Below are positions 22,122 to 27,398 of a stretch of 64,000 nucleotides of DNA, one piece after another (within the stretch, counting starts at the first letter, position 1; each line of letters begins with the position of its first letter). The stretch lies in contig LUUF01000012.1 of the NCBI GenBank assembly GCA_001644045.1, positions 1 to 64,000 on the forward strand, written 5' to 3'. The notes under the pieces were generated by a model. The model was not told where the DNA came from. It did not search any database and saw only the letters and a program-made list of their open reading frames with translations. The DNA comes from Methylomonas methanica (GTDB lineage: Bacteria > Pseudomonadota > Gammaproteobacteria > Methylococcales > Methylomonadaceae). A program made the translations under genes and the position numbers.

Positions 22122-22502
22122 TTATTGCGGGATGTCTAGCAATTTTGCATCGGTTTTAATGTTGTCTTGCTGCCCCCAGGCATTGATTGCTTCGACGAAC
22201 CATTGCTTTTTAGTCGGGTGCGGCTGCACAACGTCGTATTCGGCATAAAAACTGCCGTCGCCATGAAATTTGATCTGGCCGATACGCTGCTTACCGGCGC
22301 TGTACCAGTAACCCACCAGATCCTGAGTTTGGGTAAACGGGTCGGTCACCAGACTGAATTCGGCACTATCGAATTTCGGCAAACTGAGTTCGGTTTGCAC
22401 CGGAAAACCCAGCTTGACGATATTCTCAGTCATGCGTTGGCAGACTATCTCACCAAAAGCCCGTCTTGCCGCCACATGCTCGGCCAGTAGTTCGTTACTC
22501 AT
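22122..22502 (-). CDS. Hypothetical protein of the nif-adjacent accessory run
   Basis: 126 residues, no recognised family. It is a small soluble protein with an aromatic, beta-rich centre (GYWYSAGKQRIGQIKFHGDGSFYAEYDV) followed by PHPTKKQWFVEAINAWG. No cysteines that could bind a cluster apart from one near the N-terminus (IVCQRM). Its ATG overlaps the stop of the TPR-like gene upstream by 4 bp, so the two are coupled. Found in the same run as nif accessory genes. Confidence 0.65.
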   Translation of the reverse strand: MSNELLAEHVAARRAFGEIVCQRMTENIVKLGFPVQTELSLPKFDSAEFSLVTDPFTQTQDLVGYWYSAGKQRIGQIKFHGDGSFYAEYDVVQPHPTKKQWFVEAINAWGQQDNIKTDAKLLDIPQ

Positions 22503-23005
22503 GCGGCATCCTCCATCACCGCGTCGGCCAAATCCATGATCACCGATGCCCCGGAACGGTCTTCCGGATCGAGCGCCCGCATCACCACCAAAATTGATTG
22601 TGCTTCCGCGTCCAATTGCCGGCGCAGCTTGATAAAGGCCAGGGCTTTTAAGCTATACAGGTAAAACAAGGCGATGTCGCTGGCATACATATCCCACTGC
22701 CCCAGTTCCCGGGCCAATTGCCGATAGTCGGCCGGAAAGCCGCCCTGACGAGCTGCCTCGGTCAGCGCGGCCATCACTTCGCACTCGGCTTCCAGCAGGC
22801 GGCCTTGATAAAAATAGAATTTATACAAGGCAAAATAGGTCTGCAGACAAGCACCATCCAAGGCTTGTGCCTGTCTGAAATATTTTTCCGCCAAGGGTTT
22901 GTCGGCATGACTGGCAGCCACGGCCATCTGCAACAGTTTATTCACCTCTTCCGGCACATCCGGACTGAATAAAACCCGTTCTTCAAAAAAGCCAATTTGA
23001 CTCAT
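22499..23005 (-). CDS. TPR-like helical protein of the nif-adjacent accessory run
   Basis: 168 residues, almost entirely helical. Pairs such as LLQMAVAASHADKPLAEKYFRQAQALD and YFALYKFYFYQGRLLEAE show the small-large-small residue pattern of tetratricopeptide repeats (about two to three repeats). TPR proteins act as adaptors, here possibly for the adjacent [2Fe-2S] ferredoxin or the DUF364 protein. It starts 3 bp after the ferredoxin gene and overlaps the next gene by 4 bp. No enzymatic motif. Confidence 0.7.
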   Translation of the reverse strand: MSQIGFFEERVLFSPDVPEEVNKLLQMAVAASHADKPLAEKYFRQAQALDGACLQTYFALYKFYFYQGRLLEAECEVMAALTEAARQGGFPADYRQLARELGQWDMYASDIALFYLYSLKALAFIKLRRQLDAEAQSILVVMRALDPEDRSGASVIMDLADAVMEDAA

Positions 23006-23008
23006 TTG

Positions 23009-23332
23009 TTACCAAACCTCGGCAGGCGCTACCAAGGCCGCGACCGGCGTCCCACCCAACAGATGCTGATCAATGATGGTCTTGACGTCGTCCTTGGTAA
23101 CCTTGCCGTACATGATTCCTTCCGGATAGACCAGCACGCTGGGGCCGAGCATGCAAGGCCCCATGCAACCGGTATTGGTTAGACCGATTTTCTCGAACAG
23201 GTTGCGTGTTTGAATTTGGTTCATGAACTCGTTCATCACTTCGGCACAGCCGCTGGCGGTACAGGAGCCGCGTGGGTGGCCTTGCGGACGAGCTTGAGTA
23301 CAGACGAATACGTGTTTATCGGGACGAGGCAT
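23009..23332 (-). CDS. Thioredoxin-like [2Fe-2S] ferredoxin (Shethna type)
   Basis: 107 residues from the ATG at 23332, preceded by GGAAAG. A longer frame extends into the repeat element and is not credible. Cluster cysteines fall at 11, 24, 56 and 60 (C-x12-C...C-x3-C), the spacing of thioredoxin-fold [2Fe-2S] ferredoxins such as those of Azotobacter and Aquifex. GSCTASGCAEV and TGCMGPCMLGPSV are characteristic. Such ferredoxins are common in nif regions, where they serve in electron transfer or nitrogenase protection. The upstream gap contains two copies of the hairpin-rich repeat, so how this gene is transcribed with nifENX is unclear. Confidence 0.88.
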   Translation of the reverse strand: MPRPDKHVFVCTQARPQGHPRGSCTASGCAEVMNEFMNQIQTRNLFEKIGLTNTGCMGPCMLGPSVLVYPEGIMYGKVTKDDVKTIIDQHLLGGTPVAALVAPAEVW

Positions 23333-23363
23333 GATAGCTTTCCTTTTTTGAAATGAAAAATTG

Positions 23364-23590
23364 GTGTCGCTATCGCGACGGGTATTTGAATGTCGGTTCT
23401 CGGACCGACAGCCGAGATACTTTTCTTTGCTTGTCCAAAGAAAAGTATCCAAAAGAAAAGACACCCGGATTTCGCCCTAACCCTGCGCTTCTCGTTTTTT
23501 GCAGGGGTTGGCAAAAGGGGCTTCCTGCCCCTTCGCCAACGAGCGGCATCCCTGCCGCTCCCCTCCGGGCTAATCCCACAAAAAACTGCG
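23364..23590 (-). repeat. Structured repeat element, diverged inverted copy (C)
   Basis: On the minus strand this stretch follows the same order of blocks as the two long direct copies. It shares the GATACTTTTCTTTGGACAAGC block and the end block around CGTCGCGATAGCGACAC. The head has a stem GTTTTTTG (23494-23501) against CAAAAAAC (23579-23586), arms AAGGGGC/GCCCCTT (23515-23533), GAGCGGCA/TGCCGCTC (23541-23560) and CCC/GGG (23561-23569). The sequence of these arms differs from the other copies while the pairing is kept. The long hairpin tail present in the other copies is mostly missing. Confidence 0.7.
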
Positions 23591-23695
23591 ATGCTCGGGG
23601 TCGAAATACGGGACCGCAACCATCCCCAACTAGAACGGTTTTTAATTTAGAAAAATAACGATCCAACCCAGCAACACAGCATCGTTGTTCCCCCT

Positions 23696-24012
23696 ATGCC
23701 GCGCCGAGCACCGCAGCGTTTATCGAGAATAGCCCGAAGGGGTGCGGCAGGGATGTCGCATGTCGGCGGAGGGGCTGGGAAGCCCCTTCTGTCGACCCTC
23801 GATAAACGCTACGGCGCGCAGGATCTAAGCGGCATCGGGGTGGCCTTTTATTTGGGTACTTTCTTTTGGCCAAGCACAAATTCGTTTGGAACGAATTTGA
23901 ACAGCCAAAGGCTGGCCCGTTAGGGCGAAAACCACGGATGGTTTTCGTACCGAAAGTATTTCGGCTGTCGGGCCGAGACCCGACTTCTAAAAAGTCGTCG
24001 CGCCAGCGACAC
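23696..24012 (+). repeat. Structured repeat element, copy A
   Basis: 317 bp, closely matching copy B at 25174-25492 over its full length. The head is closed by GCAGCGTTTATCGAG (23713-23727) and CTCGATAAACGCTAC (23798-23812) and contains smaller hairpins. The tail contains AAATTCGTT/AACGAATTT (23878-23898), AGCC/GGCT (23903-23913) and GAAAACC/GGTTTTC (23927-23946). It is intergenic, between fdxB and the [2Fe-2S] ferredoxin gene. The frames that cross it are by-products of the repeat. Confidence 0.9.
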
Positions 24013-24027
24013 ATTACCCCTCACTGC

Positions 24028-24050
24028 GTGGGCACAAAACCCGTGCCCAC
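24028..24050. repeat. Perfect 8-bp hairpin after repeat copy A
   Basis: GTGGGCAC (24028-24035) pairs with GTGCCCAC (24043-24050) around AAAACCC. It lies between repeat copy A and the 3' end of fdxB. It could serve as a transcript end for fdxB, though no T-run follows on the minus strand. A small dispersed palindrome is the other possibility. Confidence 0.6.
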
Positions 24051-24082
24051 CCTACAATCAGCCGAATTTCAAAAGCTAAAAA

Positions 24083-24400
24083 TCAAGCCGCAGCCTTATG
24101 CTCATGCGTAAAACAATCCTTAGGACAAACCTTGGAACACGCCTCGCAACCAATACAATCAGCAGCGTTTTTCAAGCTCATCACCATGCTGTTATCGTCA
24201 TCGTCTTCAAAGTCACCGTAGTCGTCGCCGAAATCCTCGGCCGACAACGCTTCGTCTTTTTCGACCAAATCAAACACGTCGCGCGGACAAACCTTGAAAC
24301 AACGGCCACAACCGATACAGGTACGCTGATTGATGTCGGTAACGTACGAAGGCGTCCAGACCGTGCCGCCATAGGTAACGCCGGTTACAAATTCGCTCAT
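24083..24400 (-). CDS. fdxB: Nif-specific ferredoxin III (FdxB type)
   Basis: 105 residues with two [4Fe-4S] motifs, CIGCGRCFKVCP and CIGCEACSKVCP, separated by a long acidic insert (FGDDYGDFEDDDDN). The insert and the N-terminal YGGTVWTPSYV segment are typical of the ferredoxin III family found in nif clusters of proteobacteria. It probably supplies electrons for FeMo-cofactor assembly or nitrogenase. It follows the CCE_0567-type gene by 9 bp within the nif run. Confidence 0.9.
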   Translation of the reverse strand: MSEFVTGVTYGGTVWTPSYVTDINQRTCIGCGRCFKVCPRDVFDLVEKDEALSAEDFGDDYGDFEDDDDNSMVMSLKNAADCIGCEACSKVCPKDCFTHEHKAAA

Positions 24401-24409
24401 ACTCGCCTC

Positions 24410-24628
24410 CTATGCCGTTTCGCTGCTGGCAGCCAAGAATTTCTTGTTGGCTTCGTCCCAGGCTTTGCACGCATCGTAAGTGGCCTGCGCGATGCCCATC
24501 AGTTCGCCATAGGCATCCGGCAGTTTGTCCTCGATCAGATCGTGGAGTACCGACGCCGCTTCATTAGCGATACGCTTGGCCTTCTTTACTTCTTTTTCCA
24601 GTGCTTTGAGTTCTTCGTCGCTCATCAC
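24410..24628 (-). CDS. CCE_0567 family (DUF683) nitrogen-fixation protein
   Basis: 72 residues, helical throughout: EELKALEKEVKKAKRIANEAASVLHDLIEDKLP, then AYGELMGIAQATYDACKAWDEANKKF. This matches the small DUF683 family that is nearly always encoded next to nifX and the NifX-associated protein. Structural work on a family member showed a helical dimer that binds metal. Its precise role is unknown. It sits 5 bp after the NifX-associated gene and 9 bp before fdxB, one transcription unit. Confidence 0.88.
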   Translation of the reverse strand: MMSDEELKALEKEVKKAKRIANEAASVLHDLIEDKLPDAYGELMGIAQATYDACKAWDEANKKFLAASSETA

Positions 24629-24633
24629 TCACC

Positions 24634-25107
24634 TCACGCTTCGGCTACTTCTCTATAGGTTTCGATCAAGCCCAGCGCTTTTTCGATCGTCGCATCGGTT
24701 TTAGACGCCAGATCTTCCAGGCTAGGGAATCCGAAGCGATGCACATCGCGCAAGACTTTATCCACCACGATCAATTTGCCGACCAATACCAAGGCCCGGC
24801 CGAAACCTTCGTGGGTGATGTTGATTACCGGCACGGCCATCAAGCCGCCTCTCTTTTCGATCAAAGAGGCGATGGAGTTGTAATACGCTTTAACGCGCGC
24901 CAAGGTAATTTCATCGGGATCGCCGATAATCGGAATTTCCCGTTTACGTTCCTTGGTCATCACCAAGGGATCGATGATCTTTTCTTCCGACCATCCTTCG
25001 TAGGTATCGTAGGTATCGAGTGCGCGCAGTTGTTTGACCATTTCGACGACGATATCCGAAGTCATGAAGGGGTCGCCGGCTTCGACGACTAATGCTGGTT
25101 GGGCCAT
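24634..25107 (-). CDS. NifX-associated nitrogen fixation protein (DUF269)
   Basis: 157 residues. DPFMTSDIVVEMVKQLRALDTYDTYEGWSEEKIIDPLV, IPIIGDPDEITLARVKAYYN and IEKRGGLMAVPVINITHEGFGRALVLVGKLIVVDK match the DUF269 NifX-associated family over its full usual length. These proteins accompany nifENX and are thought to assist FeMo-cofactor maturation or transfer. A 417-bp gap carrying repeat copy B separates it from nifX, an unusual break in what is normally a tight gene string. Confidence 0.92.
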   Translation of the reverse strand: MAQPALVVEAGDPFMTSDIVVEMVKQLRALDTYDTYEGWSEEKIIDPLVMTKERKREIPIIGDPDEITLARVKAYYNSIASLIEKRGGLMAVPVINITHEGFGRALVLVGKLIVVDKVLRDVHRFGFPSLEDLASKTDATIEKALGLIETYREVAEA

Positions 25108-25173
25108 GGTGGTTCTCCTAATTTAGTGTTTGATTAATTTGAATACTTTTAATCGCGCAGGGTTAAACCCCGT

Positions 25174-25492
25174 ATGCCGCGCCGAGCACCGTAGCGTTTA
25201 TCGAGAATTGCCCGAAGGGGTGCGGCAAGGATGCCGCACGTCGGCGGAGGGGCTGGGAAGTCCCTTCTGCCGACCCTCGATAAACGCTACGGCGCGCAGG
25301 GTCAAAGCGGCGTTTCGGGTGTCGTTTCTTTTGGATACTTTTCTTTGGACAAGCACAAATTCGTTTGGAACGAATTTGAACAGCCAAAGGCTGGCCCGTT
25401 AGGGCGAAAACCACGGATGGTTTTCGTAGCGAAAGTATCGCGGTTGTCGGTCCGCGAACCGACATTAAAATCAGTCGTCGCGTCAGCGACAC
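25174..25492 (+). repeat. Structured repeat element, copy B
   Basis: 319 bp, a direct copy of the element at 23696-24012. The head is a perfect 15-bp stem, GTAGCGTTTATCGAG (25191-25205) with CTCGATAAACGCTAC (25276-25290). It encloses CCCGAAGGG, GTGCGGCA/TGCCGCAC (25220-25239) and a GGGGCT/AGTCCC arm. The tail repeats the AAATTCGTT/AACGAATTT, AGCC/GGCT and GAAAACC/GGTTTTC hairpins. It fills most of the gap between nifX and the NifX-associated gene. Confidence 0.9.
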
Positions 25493-25524
25493 AAAAATCT
25501 GGCCGTTAAGTAGCCGCAACAAAA

Positions 25525-25956
25525 TCATTCATCCCAACCTTCCTCTTCCATCGCATTAAACCGCTCAGGACTCGGCCCTTTGTGTTGGTTGATGGCTTTC
25601 GCCAGCCAGCTCGATGGACCGGCTTTCATTTCAGCCTGTAAATCCGAGATCAAATCTTTTATCGTGGCGCCTTCTTGGACTTTGATCGGCTGAATGCCTT
25701 GCGCGACGATTTGTTTAACCGCCGATGCGCCGATAGCCAGGCAGTAAACCGCCGCGCAGCCTTCCAGCAATTGAATCTTCACGGACAATTTGTCTTCGTT
25801 GCCATCCTGCGCCAGTTCGCCGAACTGGGCGGCTTCCATTAACTCCGACTGTTCCGGATCGACCGCGTAAACGGCAAACGATTTGGCGGAACCGAAATGC
25901 TGATTCACATACACCATGTCGGTGGTGGCAAAAGCGACTTTAATGGCGGTTTCCAT
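25525..25956 (-). CDS. nifX: NifX, FeMo-cofactor carrier/assembly protein
   Basis: 143 residues from the ATG at 25956, which has GAGG seven bases upstream. A start further upstream at 26010 would overlap nifN and adds an unrelated N-terminus. IKVAFATTDMVYVNQHFGSAKSFAVYAVD and CAAVYCLAIGASAVKQIVAQGIQPIKV are the conserved dinitrogenase iron-molybdenum cofactor-binding fold. NifX carries NifB-co or the VK-cluster to the NifEN scaffold. It lies directly after nifN, the usual order. Confidence 0.93.
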   Translation of the reverse strand: METAIKVAFATTDMVYVNQHFGSAKSFAVYAVDPEQSELMEAAQFGELAQDGNEDKLSVKIQLLEGCAAVYCLAIGASAVKQIVAQGIQPIKVQEGATIKDLISDLQAEMKAGPSSWLAKAINQHKGPSPERFNAMEEEGWDE

Positions 25957-26000
25957 GGAAATCCTCTGTTCGTTTGTATGCAAAACTTGTATACGGCGCG

Positions 26001-27398
26001 TTAATGACATGACGGCGAGCAGGCTTGACGTTCGGATTCGGGTTTTTGCGCATACGGCGAGTAATACGGCTCGATCTCTTCATGGGCAAAATTGATCACC
26101 AGATTGGCCAGATCGAACAAGGTTTGCCGGGTGCCGCGATAACCGATCCAGGTTTTTTGATAGCCGCCGATGATGTCGTAGAGCGGAAAGCCGATGCGCA
26201 GAATGGGTATGCCCAACCGTTCCGCACTGGCGACGGCGTGCGAGTTGCCGATCAACAATTGCGCCTTGCGCTCCTTGGCCATTACTTCCAAATCTTCCAG
26301 ATCGCCGATCTTGATGCTGTCCACCGGCGCCGTCGCCAGCACCGGGGTGTTGCCGGCGCAGATTGCGGTCACCACTTCCGCACCCATGCCTTGCACTAAA
26401 TGAATCAAGGCGTTTAACTGGTCCGGATCGGCGGCAATAGCCACCCGCAGCTGACCGAGCATGAAATGGGTATCCAGCATCGCATCCTGCAATTGCGCGC
26501 GCTGCCGTTCGATCTTTTGCGGCACCGGCATTTCGCTGATGTCGGCCAGAGCCGTAATCAATGCATCGTTGGCTTGTAAACCGTACAGATGATCGAAATA
26601 GTGGCTAGGCACACCGGTCTTTTCCTGCAACAGCTCGCCGGATTTACGCAGGGACGCACCGATAATCAAGCTGGCTCTGGCTTCACCCAGTGTCGCCAGT
26701 TCCGAGACTGGCGTACCGCCGATAGTCACCGGCGAAAAGTCATCGTCAGTCAGACTACCGTCAAGAGAATCGGACAAATCAGGCACCAATACGGGCCGTA
26801 AATTGAATTGTTCGATCAAATCACGCAAGGCTTCAAGGTCGCCCGGCGTCAGCATCGGGCTGACCAAACAATTGACCTGCCGTTGGCGATTACCGGGCTT
26901 GGTGCCGGCAGTTTCCGCATCCGGCACCAAGGCCTTGACGATTTCATAAATAGTCGCCGCGTAACCGGTTTCGACGCAGCCGGTAAAATCCGGCGTATTG
27001 ACTGCAACCACGGCCACATGTGCATATTCCGGGTATCTTTCGCGAAATTCACGGACGTTGCGATGCACGTCGCAGCCTTGGGTTTCCGCTAGACCGGTGG
27101 TCAACACCGCAATCAAGGCCGGATTGGATTTTTCGGCGATAGCCTTGATACCCTCGATGACGTTTTCGTCGGCACCCAATACCGAGCTGGCTTGGTCCAT
27201 CGCGGTGGTTTGCAAGGGAATCGGCTCGCGAAAATGCCGCACAAAAAACACCTTGGCAAACGCGGTGCAACCTTGCGAACCATGTAACATGGGGATCGCC
27301 CGATCAAAGCCTAGGCAAGCCAAGGAACCGCCGGTGGGCTGACTGGCCTTTAAGGGATTGACCGACAGGGCCTTGTTGCGTTTAACGATTTCGGCCAT
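26001..27398 (-). CDS. nifN: NifN, beta-type subunit of the FeMo-cofactor scaffold
   Basis: 465 residues, normal length. N-terminal NPLKASQPTGGSLACLGFDRAIPMLHGSQGCTAF with the cluster-coordinating Cys, TTAMDQASSVLGADENVIEGI, and ETQGCDVHRNVREFRERYP follow the NifK/NifN pattern. It forms the NifE2N2 scaffold with NifE on which FeMo-cofactor precursor is matured with Mo and homocitrate. Its ATG is one base past the nifE stop, the tightest possible operon contact, so its expression follows nifE. Confidence 0.95.
   Translation of the reverse strand: MAEIVKRNKALSVNPLKASQPTGGSLACLGFDRAIPMLHGSQGCTAFAKVFFVRHFREPIPLQTTAMDQASSVLGADENVIEGIKAIAEKSNPALIAVLTTGLAETQGCDVHRNVREFRERYPEYAHVAVVAVNTPDFTGCVETGYAATIYEIVKALVPDAETAGTKPGNRQRQVNCLVSPMLTPGDLEALRDLIEQFNLRPVLVPDLSDSLDGSLTDDDFSPVTIGGTPVSELATLGEARASLIIGASLRKSGELLQEKTGVPSHYFDHLYGLQANDALITALADISEMPVPQKIERQRAQLQDAMLDTHFMLGQLRVAIAADPDQLNALIHLVQGMGAEVVTAICAGNTPVLATAPVDSIKIGDLEDLEVMAKERKAQLLIGNSHAVASAERLGIPILRIGFPLYDIIGGYQKTWIGYRGTRQTLFDLANLVINFAHEEIEPYYSPYAQKPESERQACSPSCH

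Follow-up and report, generated by a model that had tools for sequence, protein, structure and literature searches.

Three structured intergenic elements lie close together in the DNA analysed here, a window of 64 kb (the whole stretch, positions 1 to 64,000 of contig LUUF01000012.1) from Methylomonas methanica, which judged by its gene content is a nitrogen-fixation region. The question raised by this locus is what these repeats, labelled ENDs below, are and why their structure is conserved. We found that ENDs often form tail-outward inverted pairs around accessory genes, that these pairs occupy common chromosomal sites with different contents in different species, and that one strand of the element carries conserved GGA loops in its folded head. 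From these sequence comparisons we propose, with moderate confidence, that the END is an RNA element of the CsrA/RsmA-binding type that has spread on mobile DNA and borders slots for a replaceable gene. The inverted pairs around exchangeable genes, the assignment of two of the three elements to such a pair, and the GGA loops suggesting CsrA binding go beyond the initial annotation of this DNA, in which the elements themselves had been described.

The elements are named A, B and C by rising coordinate; in the initial annotation these letters evidently stood for the copy at 23696, the copy at 25174 and the inverted copy, respectively, despite its coordinate-ordered listing. Their parts are as follows.

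23364..23606, minus strand: element A, short form and left half of an inverted pair, with its head (23464-23606) on the inner side and its tail (23364-23463) on the outer side
23607..23695, no strand: gene-free spacer of 89 bp between the heads of A and B
23696..24012, plus strand: element B, long form carrying an extra block of ~75 nt, the pair's right half
25174..25492, plus strand: element C, solitary, long form
23364..23379, plus strand: terminal hairpin of A, GTGTCGCTATCGCGAC
23997..24012, minus strand: terminal hairpin of B, from the same pattern search
25477..25492, minus strand: terminal hairpin of C, from the same pattern search
23547..23554, minus strand: middle-arm loop of A, CAGGGATG (ANGGA motif)
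23748..23755, plus strand: middle-arm loop of B, CAGGGATG
25226..25233, plus strand: middle-arm loop of C, CAAGGATG
23933..23940, plus strand: extra-block loop of B, CACGGATG
25412..25419, plus strand: extra-block loop of C, CACGGATG

Structure and strand polarity of the elements

A covariance model gave strong matches in the window only at 25174-25318 and 23696-23840 on the plus strand and at 23464-23606 on the minus strand (E-values of 1.8e-40, 3.5e-40 and 2.6e-36, respectively); two further, weak matches fall on the heads at 25174 and 23696 read on the opposite strand. Compared with shuffled sequences, the folding z-scores are -8.7 (plus strand) and -9.3 (minus strand) for C, and -7.1 for A. 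All three annotated elements are therefore present and far from chance, with small corrections. The inverted element starts at 23364 as described and ends at 23606 instead of 23590, and the tail, previously ascribed only to the two long copies, is found in the inverted copy too, the long copies being distinguished by the extra hairpin block. The short form thus measures ~245 nt and the long form ~319 nt, the additional ~75 nt folding into further hairpins. Elements A and B are one inverted pair, head to head.

Selection for structure, suggested in the initial annotation, is strongly supported by covariation. In 40 aligned heads, double compensatory changes occur in 24 of the 50 pairs and 97.0% of 2000 cells are paired, which none of 500 shuffles matched; a control with sliding partners lowers pairing to 40-44%. 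Within the window, one arm shows the double compensatory change reported for it (GTGCGGCA/TGCCGCAC at 25220-25239 versus GAGCGGCA/TGCCGCTC at 23541-23560), and the outer stem is indeed replaced in the inverted copy by GTTTTTTG/CAAAAAAC (23494-23501/23579-23586). In the two long copies the outer stem is GTAGCGTTTATCGAG/CTCGATAAACGCTAC, which pairs without fault at 25191-25205/25276-25290 and has one mismatch in the copy at 23696, whose middle arm (23742-23761) is kept with G-T pairs as described.

The mispairs reveal which strand folds. In 102 ENDs, G-T mispairs outnumber A-C mispairs by 133 to 27 (25 pairs versus 7), and in the alignment of 40 copies from the own genome (A1) by 61 to 14, all of these counts coming from related and hence non-independent copies. 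Because G-T exceeds A-C, one strand, read from head to tail, would fold as RNA or single-stranded DNA. Of the two forms initially considered, RNA and cruciform, the latter is disfavoured by this strand asymmetry.

Distribution of the family

Further copies exist in the own genome and in relatives, and their arms covary beyond chance, a check that the initial annotation had suggested. A DNA search of the own genome yields 60 matching pieces, and the covariance model R1 gives 53 matches, of which 48 were used; the five that were dropped are weak, and four of these represent the opposite strand of another copy. Similar numbers of R1 matches are found in G011, G025 and G031, the other three Methylomonas genomes used for pair counts (67, 61 and 62, respectively). 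With the own genome counted throughout, 34 of the 37 Methylomonas genomes have DNA matches, and R1 matches occur in 83 of 201 genomes and 21 of 48 genera of the order, and in 43 of 369 genomes and 37 of 272 genera of the class Gammaproteobacteria. R1 matches are scattered over order and class, so that the family is probably an old one. A core like GCCGAGCA..CG.AG / GAAGCGCAGG is retained in distant copies together with variable arms, and most of those inspected have a tail hairpin of the CTTTTCTTTGG type. ENDs are apparently a large, unnamed family of folded elements across Gammaproteobacteria; a literature search, judged by title and abstract, found no description of them.

The terminal hairpin pattern has 43 matches genome-wide against 3 for a reversed control, and it is unlikely to be an independent repeat, about five of these copies lying away from listed ENDs. 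Miniature palindromes of ~71-76 bp consisting of two END tails alone were observed at L133:1403-1473, L107:2933-3007 and L032:7637-7712, and are possible remnants or precursors of slots. Several listed open reading frames (ORFs) overlap ENDs, and the family is a possible source of spurious hypothetical proteins. In searches of phage and plasmid sequences, the element has no phage match, and the sole plasmid match is a 41-nt hairpin of the extra block (25355-25395 in the window, positions 182-222 of C), which is 90-95% alike in five records, four Salmonella plasmids and one from Klebsiella.

Conserved GGA loops

Of 40 copies, 38 have CANGGATG as their middle-arm loop and all 40 have ANGGA in it; GGA at the apex of the third arm is conserved in 39 of the 40, the stems beneath varying in both arms. 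Most middle loops in Methylomonas are AGGGAT, and AGGAA or GGGAA is frequent in the third arm; distant ENDs show AYGGAY-type loops in two neighbouring hairpins. In predicted folds of 41 ENDs, the head-to-tail strand has 1.80 ANGGA/AGGA loops per END, compared with 0.02 on the other strand and 0.11 in shuffles. At least two such loops are present in 27 of these ENDs and none in 2, which agrees with CsrA-type targets, where GGA stands in hairpin loops that are usually paired. Across the class, at least two ANGGA motifs occur in 31 of 44 heads versus 21% of simple shuffles. The CsrA consensus obtained by SELEX (systematic evolution of ligands by exponential enrichment) is CARGGAUG.

Paired GGA loops are a signature of CsrA/RsmA, and the Rfam family TwoAYGGAY has been proposed as CsrA-binding (PMC4333381). 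TwoAYGGAY (RF01731, in clan CL00106 with RsmW) has two adjacent hairpin loops of the ANGGA type inside an enclosing stem, an arrangement that END heads appear to share. Applied to 18 distant loci, the TwoAYGGAY model matches END heads only, five of them and always on the head-to-tail strand, with scores of 40.6 (L386), 39.0, 37.6 (L382), 34.3 and 30.2 bits, the matches of 39.0 and 30.2 bits being full-length. Other sub-threshold Rfam matches on the distant loci include RsmW, RsmV, Qrr and RAGATH-32. ENDs differ from TwoAYGGAY in lying below its gathering score, in having a further arm and a tail, and in being multicopy and arranged in inverted pairs, features of which the available portions of PMC4333381 and PMC2864571 make no mention for TwoAYGGAY. 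Strand polarity, conserved GGA loops and TwoAYGGAY matches together favour an RNA of the CsrA-binding kind.

Inverted pairs and their cargo

Neighbouring ENDs are strongly biased in orientation. Among the matches listed for the own genome (48 of 53) and for G011, G025 and G031 (150 of 190), neighbours within 5 kb are ordered '-+', i.e. tail-outward, in 63 cases, '+-' in 8, '++' in 5 and '--' in 2. The respective numbers are 6, 1, 2 and 0 in five other genomes of the order (74 matches), where the '-+' pairs come from only two of the five, and 12, 2, 3 and 2 among the matches listed for the class sample (113 rows; those of the own genome, G000, and partial or weakest ones were left out). Unlike the usual inverted pairs, three ENDs at L043:9675-10562 of the own genome follow one another as direct tandem copies spaced by 314-329 bp.

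In the four Methylomonas genomes, the DNA inside a complete pair has a median length of 1082 bp. A single ORF of 100 aa or more is present in 38 of 52 cassettes, two in 11 and none in 3, with 34 of these ORFs on the minus and 26 on the plus strand. The cargo is highly diverse: 66 cargo ORFs are nearly all mutually unrelated, three pairs being related at 1e-4. When 40 cargo proteins were compared singly with PADLOC, 8 matched models at 1e-5 (OLD/GajA-like, PDC-S05, PDC-S31, a Cas9-type HNH domain only, PDC-S20/PifA-like, dCTP deaminase, PDC-M72A and type IV restriction), and 32 matched none. Of 37 Methylomonas genomes, 12 contain some match to the dCTP deaminase, and only 3, including its own, contain a strong one (E < 1e-80). 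A 534-aa cargo protein at L160:1704-3305 has an N-terminal HNH domain like those of Cas9 and IscB, and the rest of it has no match in Pfam and NCBIfam.

Conserved sites with changing contents

From 51 cassettes with complete ends, 53 orthologous site pairs were obtained at 15 sites, with flanks 78-99% alike. The contents are common over at least 70% in 2 pairs, in part in 9 (a REPtron), and not in 42, so that 51 of the 53 differ wholly or partly between conserved flanks. The bordering ENDs tend to be retained: orthologous ENDs have a mean identity of 0.89 versus 0.80 for others and are at least 88% alike in 70% versus 5.8%, and for 49 of 88 ENDs the closest END from any other locus is the ortholog, compared with a mean of 2.2 and a maximum of 8 in shuffles. 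In 23 of the 42 pairs with different contents both ENDs are at least 88% alike.

In the five sites inspected, divergence of the contents often sets in 20-27 nt into the head, past a motif like GGGATGGTTTTCTCCCGT, and at some slot sides homology continues inside the head for up to 197 nt. Many species reuse the sufB-sufC and nif (A/B) positions, with cargo that differs or is absent. At the A/B site, the model-drawn ends are 93-163 bp apart in other Methylomonas, and one species has 462 bp with a small ORF; a clean empty site for this pair was looked for in other Methylomonas and not found. In 20 other Methylomonas regions, the C site has an END in the same orientation in 6, in the opposite orientation in 4 and none in 10; in six species without it the gap is 71-75 bp, the sequence being too divergent to place the junction. 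The same cargo occurs at two sites in one case (L041/L182), and its homology ends short of the heads. Besides ENDs, unrelated insertions are present in the sufB-sufC intergenic region (L087-L116) of several species of the genus, including genes resembling, by eye, nucleotidyltransferase/HEPN toxin-antitoxin pairs.

Mobility

The initial suggestion that the elements may be non-autonomous mobile repeats holds for two other genera of the family, where terminal inverted repeats (TIRs) and target duplications are evident; no duplication was found in Methylomonas. The solitary ENDs of G139 and G146 are contained in elements that measure 319-425 bp and have TIRs. Target duplications with at most one mismatch accompany 12 of 21 copies, namely 7 bp in 8 of 13 and 8 bp in 4 of 8, as in miniature inverted-repeat transposable elements (MITEs); in the remaining copies one or both TIRs were unrecognised. 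The two kinds of MITE have the END in common and different TIRs.

Proposed role and alternative explanations

In the reading we prefer, the END is read from head to tail, and its head would offer a pair of hairpins with GGA loops, like TwoAYGGAY and RsmX/Y/Z. ENDs would have spread on non-autonomous mobile DNA, a single END forming the body of the MITEs in the two other genera; mobile copies would land beside genes, and heads-inward pairs would be kept. In Methylomonas such pairs would border chromosomal slots for a single accessory gene; slot and borders would be inherited in place, and the gene between them would be replaced, most simply by recombination with relatives sharing the slot. The RNA would most likely act where transcripts exit the slot, as a stable CsrA-binding 3' structure, and these outward-reading structures may insulate or regulate whichever gene occupies it.

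Several observations weigh against this proposal. No END attains 43, the gathering score of TwoAYGGAY, and its clan is matched only weakly by the copies in the window: the Rfam scan of the window region gave nothing above gathering, and 22500-26500 shows only RsmW (20.2 bits, E 2.6). The csrA gene was not found in the Methylomonas stretches searched, which cover part of the genomes only; the one match in the sequence examined is in an unrelated bacterium. A 3' role is questioned by the solitary copies of G139 and G146, of which only 7 of 20 have a co-directional upstream gene. An inverted pair in a distant gammaproteobacterium (L384:1218-3266) surrounds a gene resembling methionyl-tRNA synthetase (metG-like, by eye from the first residues), so pairing need not mean exchange. 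Around 51 Methylomonas cassettes, target duplications of lengths 3-9 show no excess over shuffles, which may be due to age. Finally, in the 42 pairs with different contents, one END is below 88% in 17 and both are in 2, so that the END itself is sometimes replaced; BLAST places the nearest relative at another site for 44 of 88 ENDs; and the tail holds little locus signal, the inheritance of borders in place therefore resting on the head.

One alternative, which we consider unlikely, is that ENDs terminate non-autonomous transposons or gene cassettes, whose recombinase reads folded single-stranded DNA and carries or exchanges the gene. Tail-outward inverted pairing with a sharp common terminus, GTGTCGCNNNNGCGAC, would fit such a mechanism, as would the predominance of one gene per pair and the divergence at many slot sides straight after the ~20-nt motif just inside the head, and strand-asymmetric folding suits single-stranded DNA equally well. 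MITEs, composite transposons and mobile insertion cassettes are all non-autonomous; the END-bearing elements of G139 and G146 resemble MITEs in their TIRs and target duplications, and paired copies around a gene recall composite transposons. ENDs differ from MITEs in that the END body is a conserved structured module shared by two elements with different TIRs, and in that the Methylomonas pairs show no target duplications. Integron gene cassettes mostly have one unknown or defence-like gene per unit and folded sites, like END slots; the latter have two inverted sites per gene and are scattered, not arrayed. Among the 64 cargo proteins scanned, however, the only transposase-type matches seen were RAYTs, which have their own repetitive extragenic palindromes (REPs), and no integrase was among the matches. 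Homology running ~200 nt inside some heads also speaks against this mechanism, which moreover does not predict conserved GGA in two loops.

The slots might instead be minimal mobile elements of the Neisseria type, exchanged by homologous recombination after DNA uptake, with ENDs being old intergenic repeats of separate role. Minimal mobile elements of Neisseria have different genes at one site between conserved neighbours, and the conserved flanks, different contents and mostly orthologous ENDs agree with this, as does the presence of unrelated REPs and insertions in or next to several slots. The Methylomonas slots differ in being bordered by a structured inverted repeat, and the orientation bias of 63 to 8 and its recurrence in other families are left unexplained, which makes this explanation doubtful.

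Somewhat less probable still are plain transcription-end or mRNA-stability hairpins with no specific protein partner. The intergenic position and very stable folds are as expected for these; intrinsic terminators, on the other hand, are near background (6 found, 4.0 expected), a co-directional gene precedes only the 7 of 20 solitary copies mentioned above, and GGA conservation is not predicted.

RAYT-type transposases were first suspected, from their association with ENDs, to be the autonomous mobiliser, and this was rejected since the RAYTs concerned own REPs. A RAYT-family protein is present in 3 of 52 cassettes. Of 51 RAYTs, 18 are followed on their 3' side by an END at no more than 400 nt, 6 have one elsewhere nearby and 27 have none. 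Those adjoining ENDs fall into two clades, clustered on the tree (0 of 500 shuffles). Among 17 RAYT genes inspected in these clades, 15 have the exact pattern of a GTAG-tagged REP 69-85 nt ahead of the start codon, and in 16 its reverse follows the stop codon at 21-31 nt; the few that deviate carry degenerate versions. RAYTs in slots thus look like passengers, i.e. classic REPtrons. A REP-like palindrome, GCGTGGGCAC..GTGCCCACCCTAC, lies directly outside element B (24026-24055 in the window), and is probably the GTAG REP of clade-A RAYT genes, since a near-identical sequence flanks those genes.

Like REPs and REPINs, REPtrons and TIRtrons, ENDs are intergenic palindromic repeats, often in inverted pairs, and long TIRs around RAYT-type genes have been described (PMC3733652, PMC8266576). 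ENDs are several times longer (245-319 nt, compared with the 20-40 bp hairpin of a REP) and have no conserved GTAG or CGTC border tag in the alignments. That ENDs are the long TIRs of an enclosed RAYT-type (TIRYT) transposase, i.e. TIRtrons, is very improbable and largely contradicted, in spite of the two clades between or beside ENDs, by the REPs that these RAYTs carry, by the few cassettes with a RAYT, and by 80 RAYT relatives in named genomes, only 6 of which, all from Methylomonas, have ENDs.

The proposal of a mobile RNA element of the CsrA-binding type would join a CsrA-type RNA structure, mobile DNA, and fixed slots with single-gene turnover between species, three subjects that our literature search did not find linked together. 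In its broadest and tentative form, which we regard as improbable at present, a class-wide, unnamed system would use mobile CsrA-binding RNA in inverted pairs to mark and insulate slots for exchangeable accessory and defence genes, giving any occupant the same RNA-level control. The slots themselves are an easy hunting ground for new accessory and defence genes, given the share of cargo proteins that match no PADLOC model.

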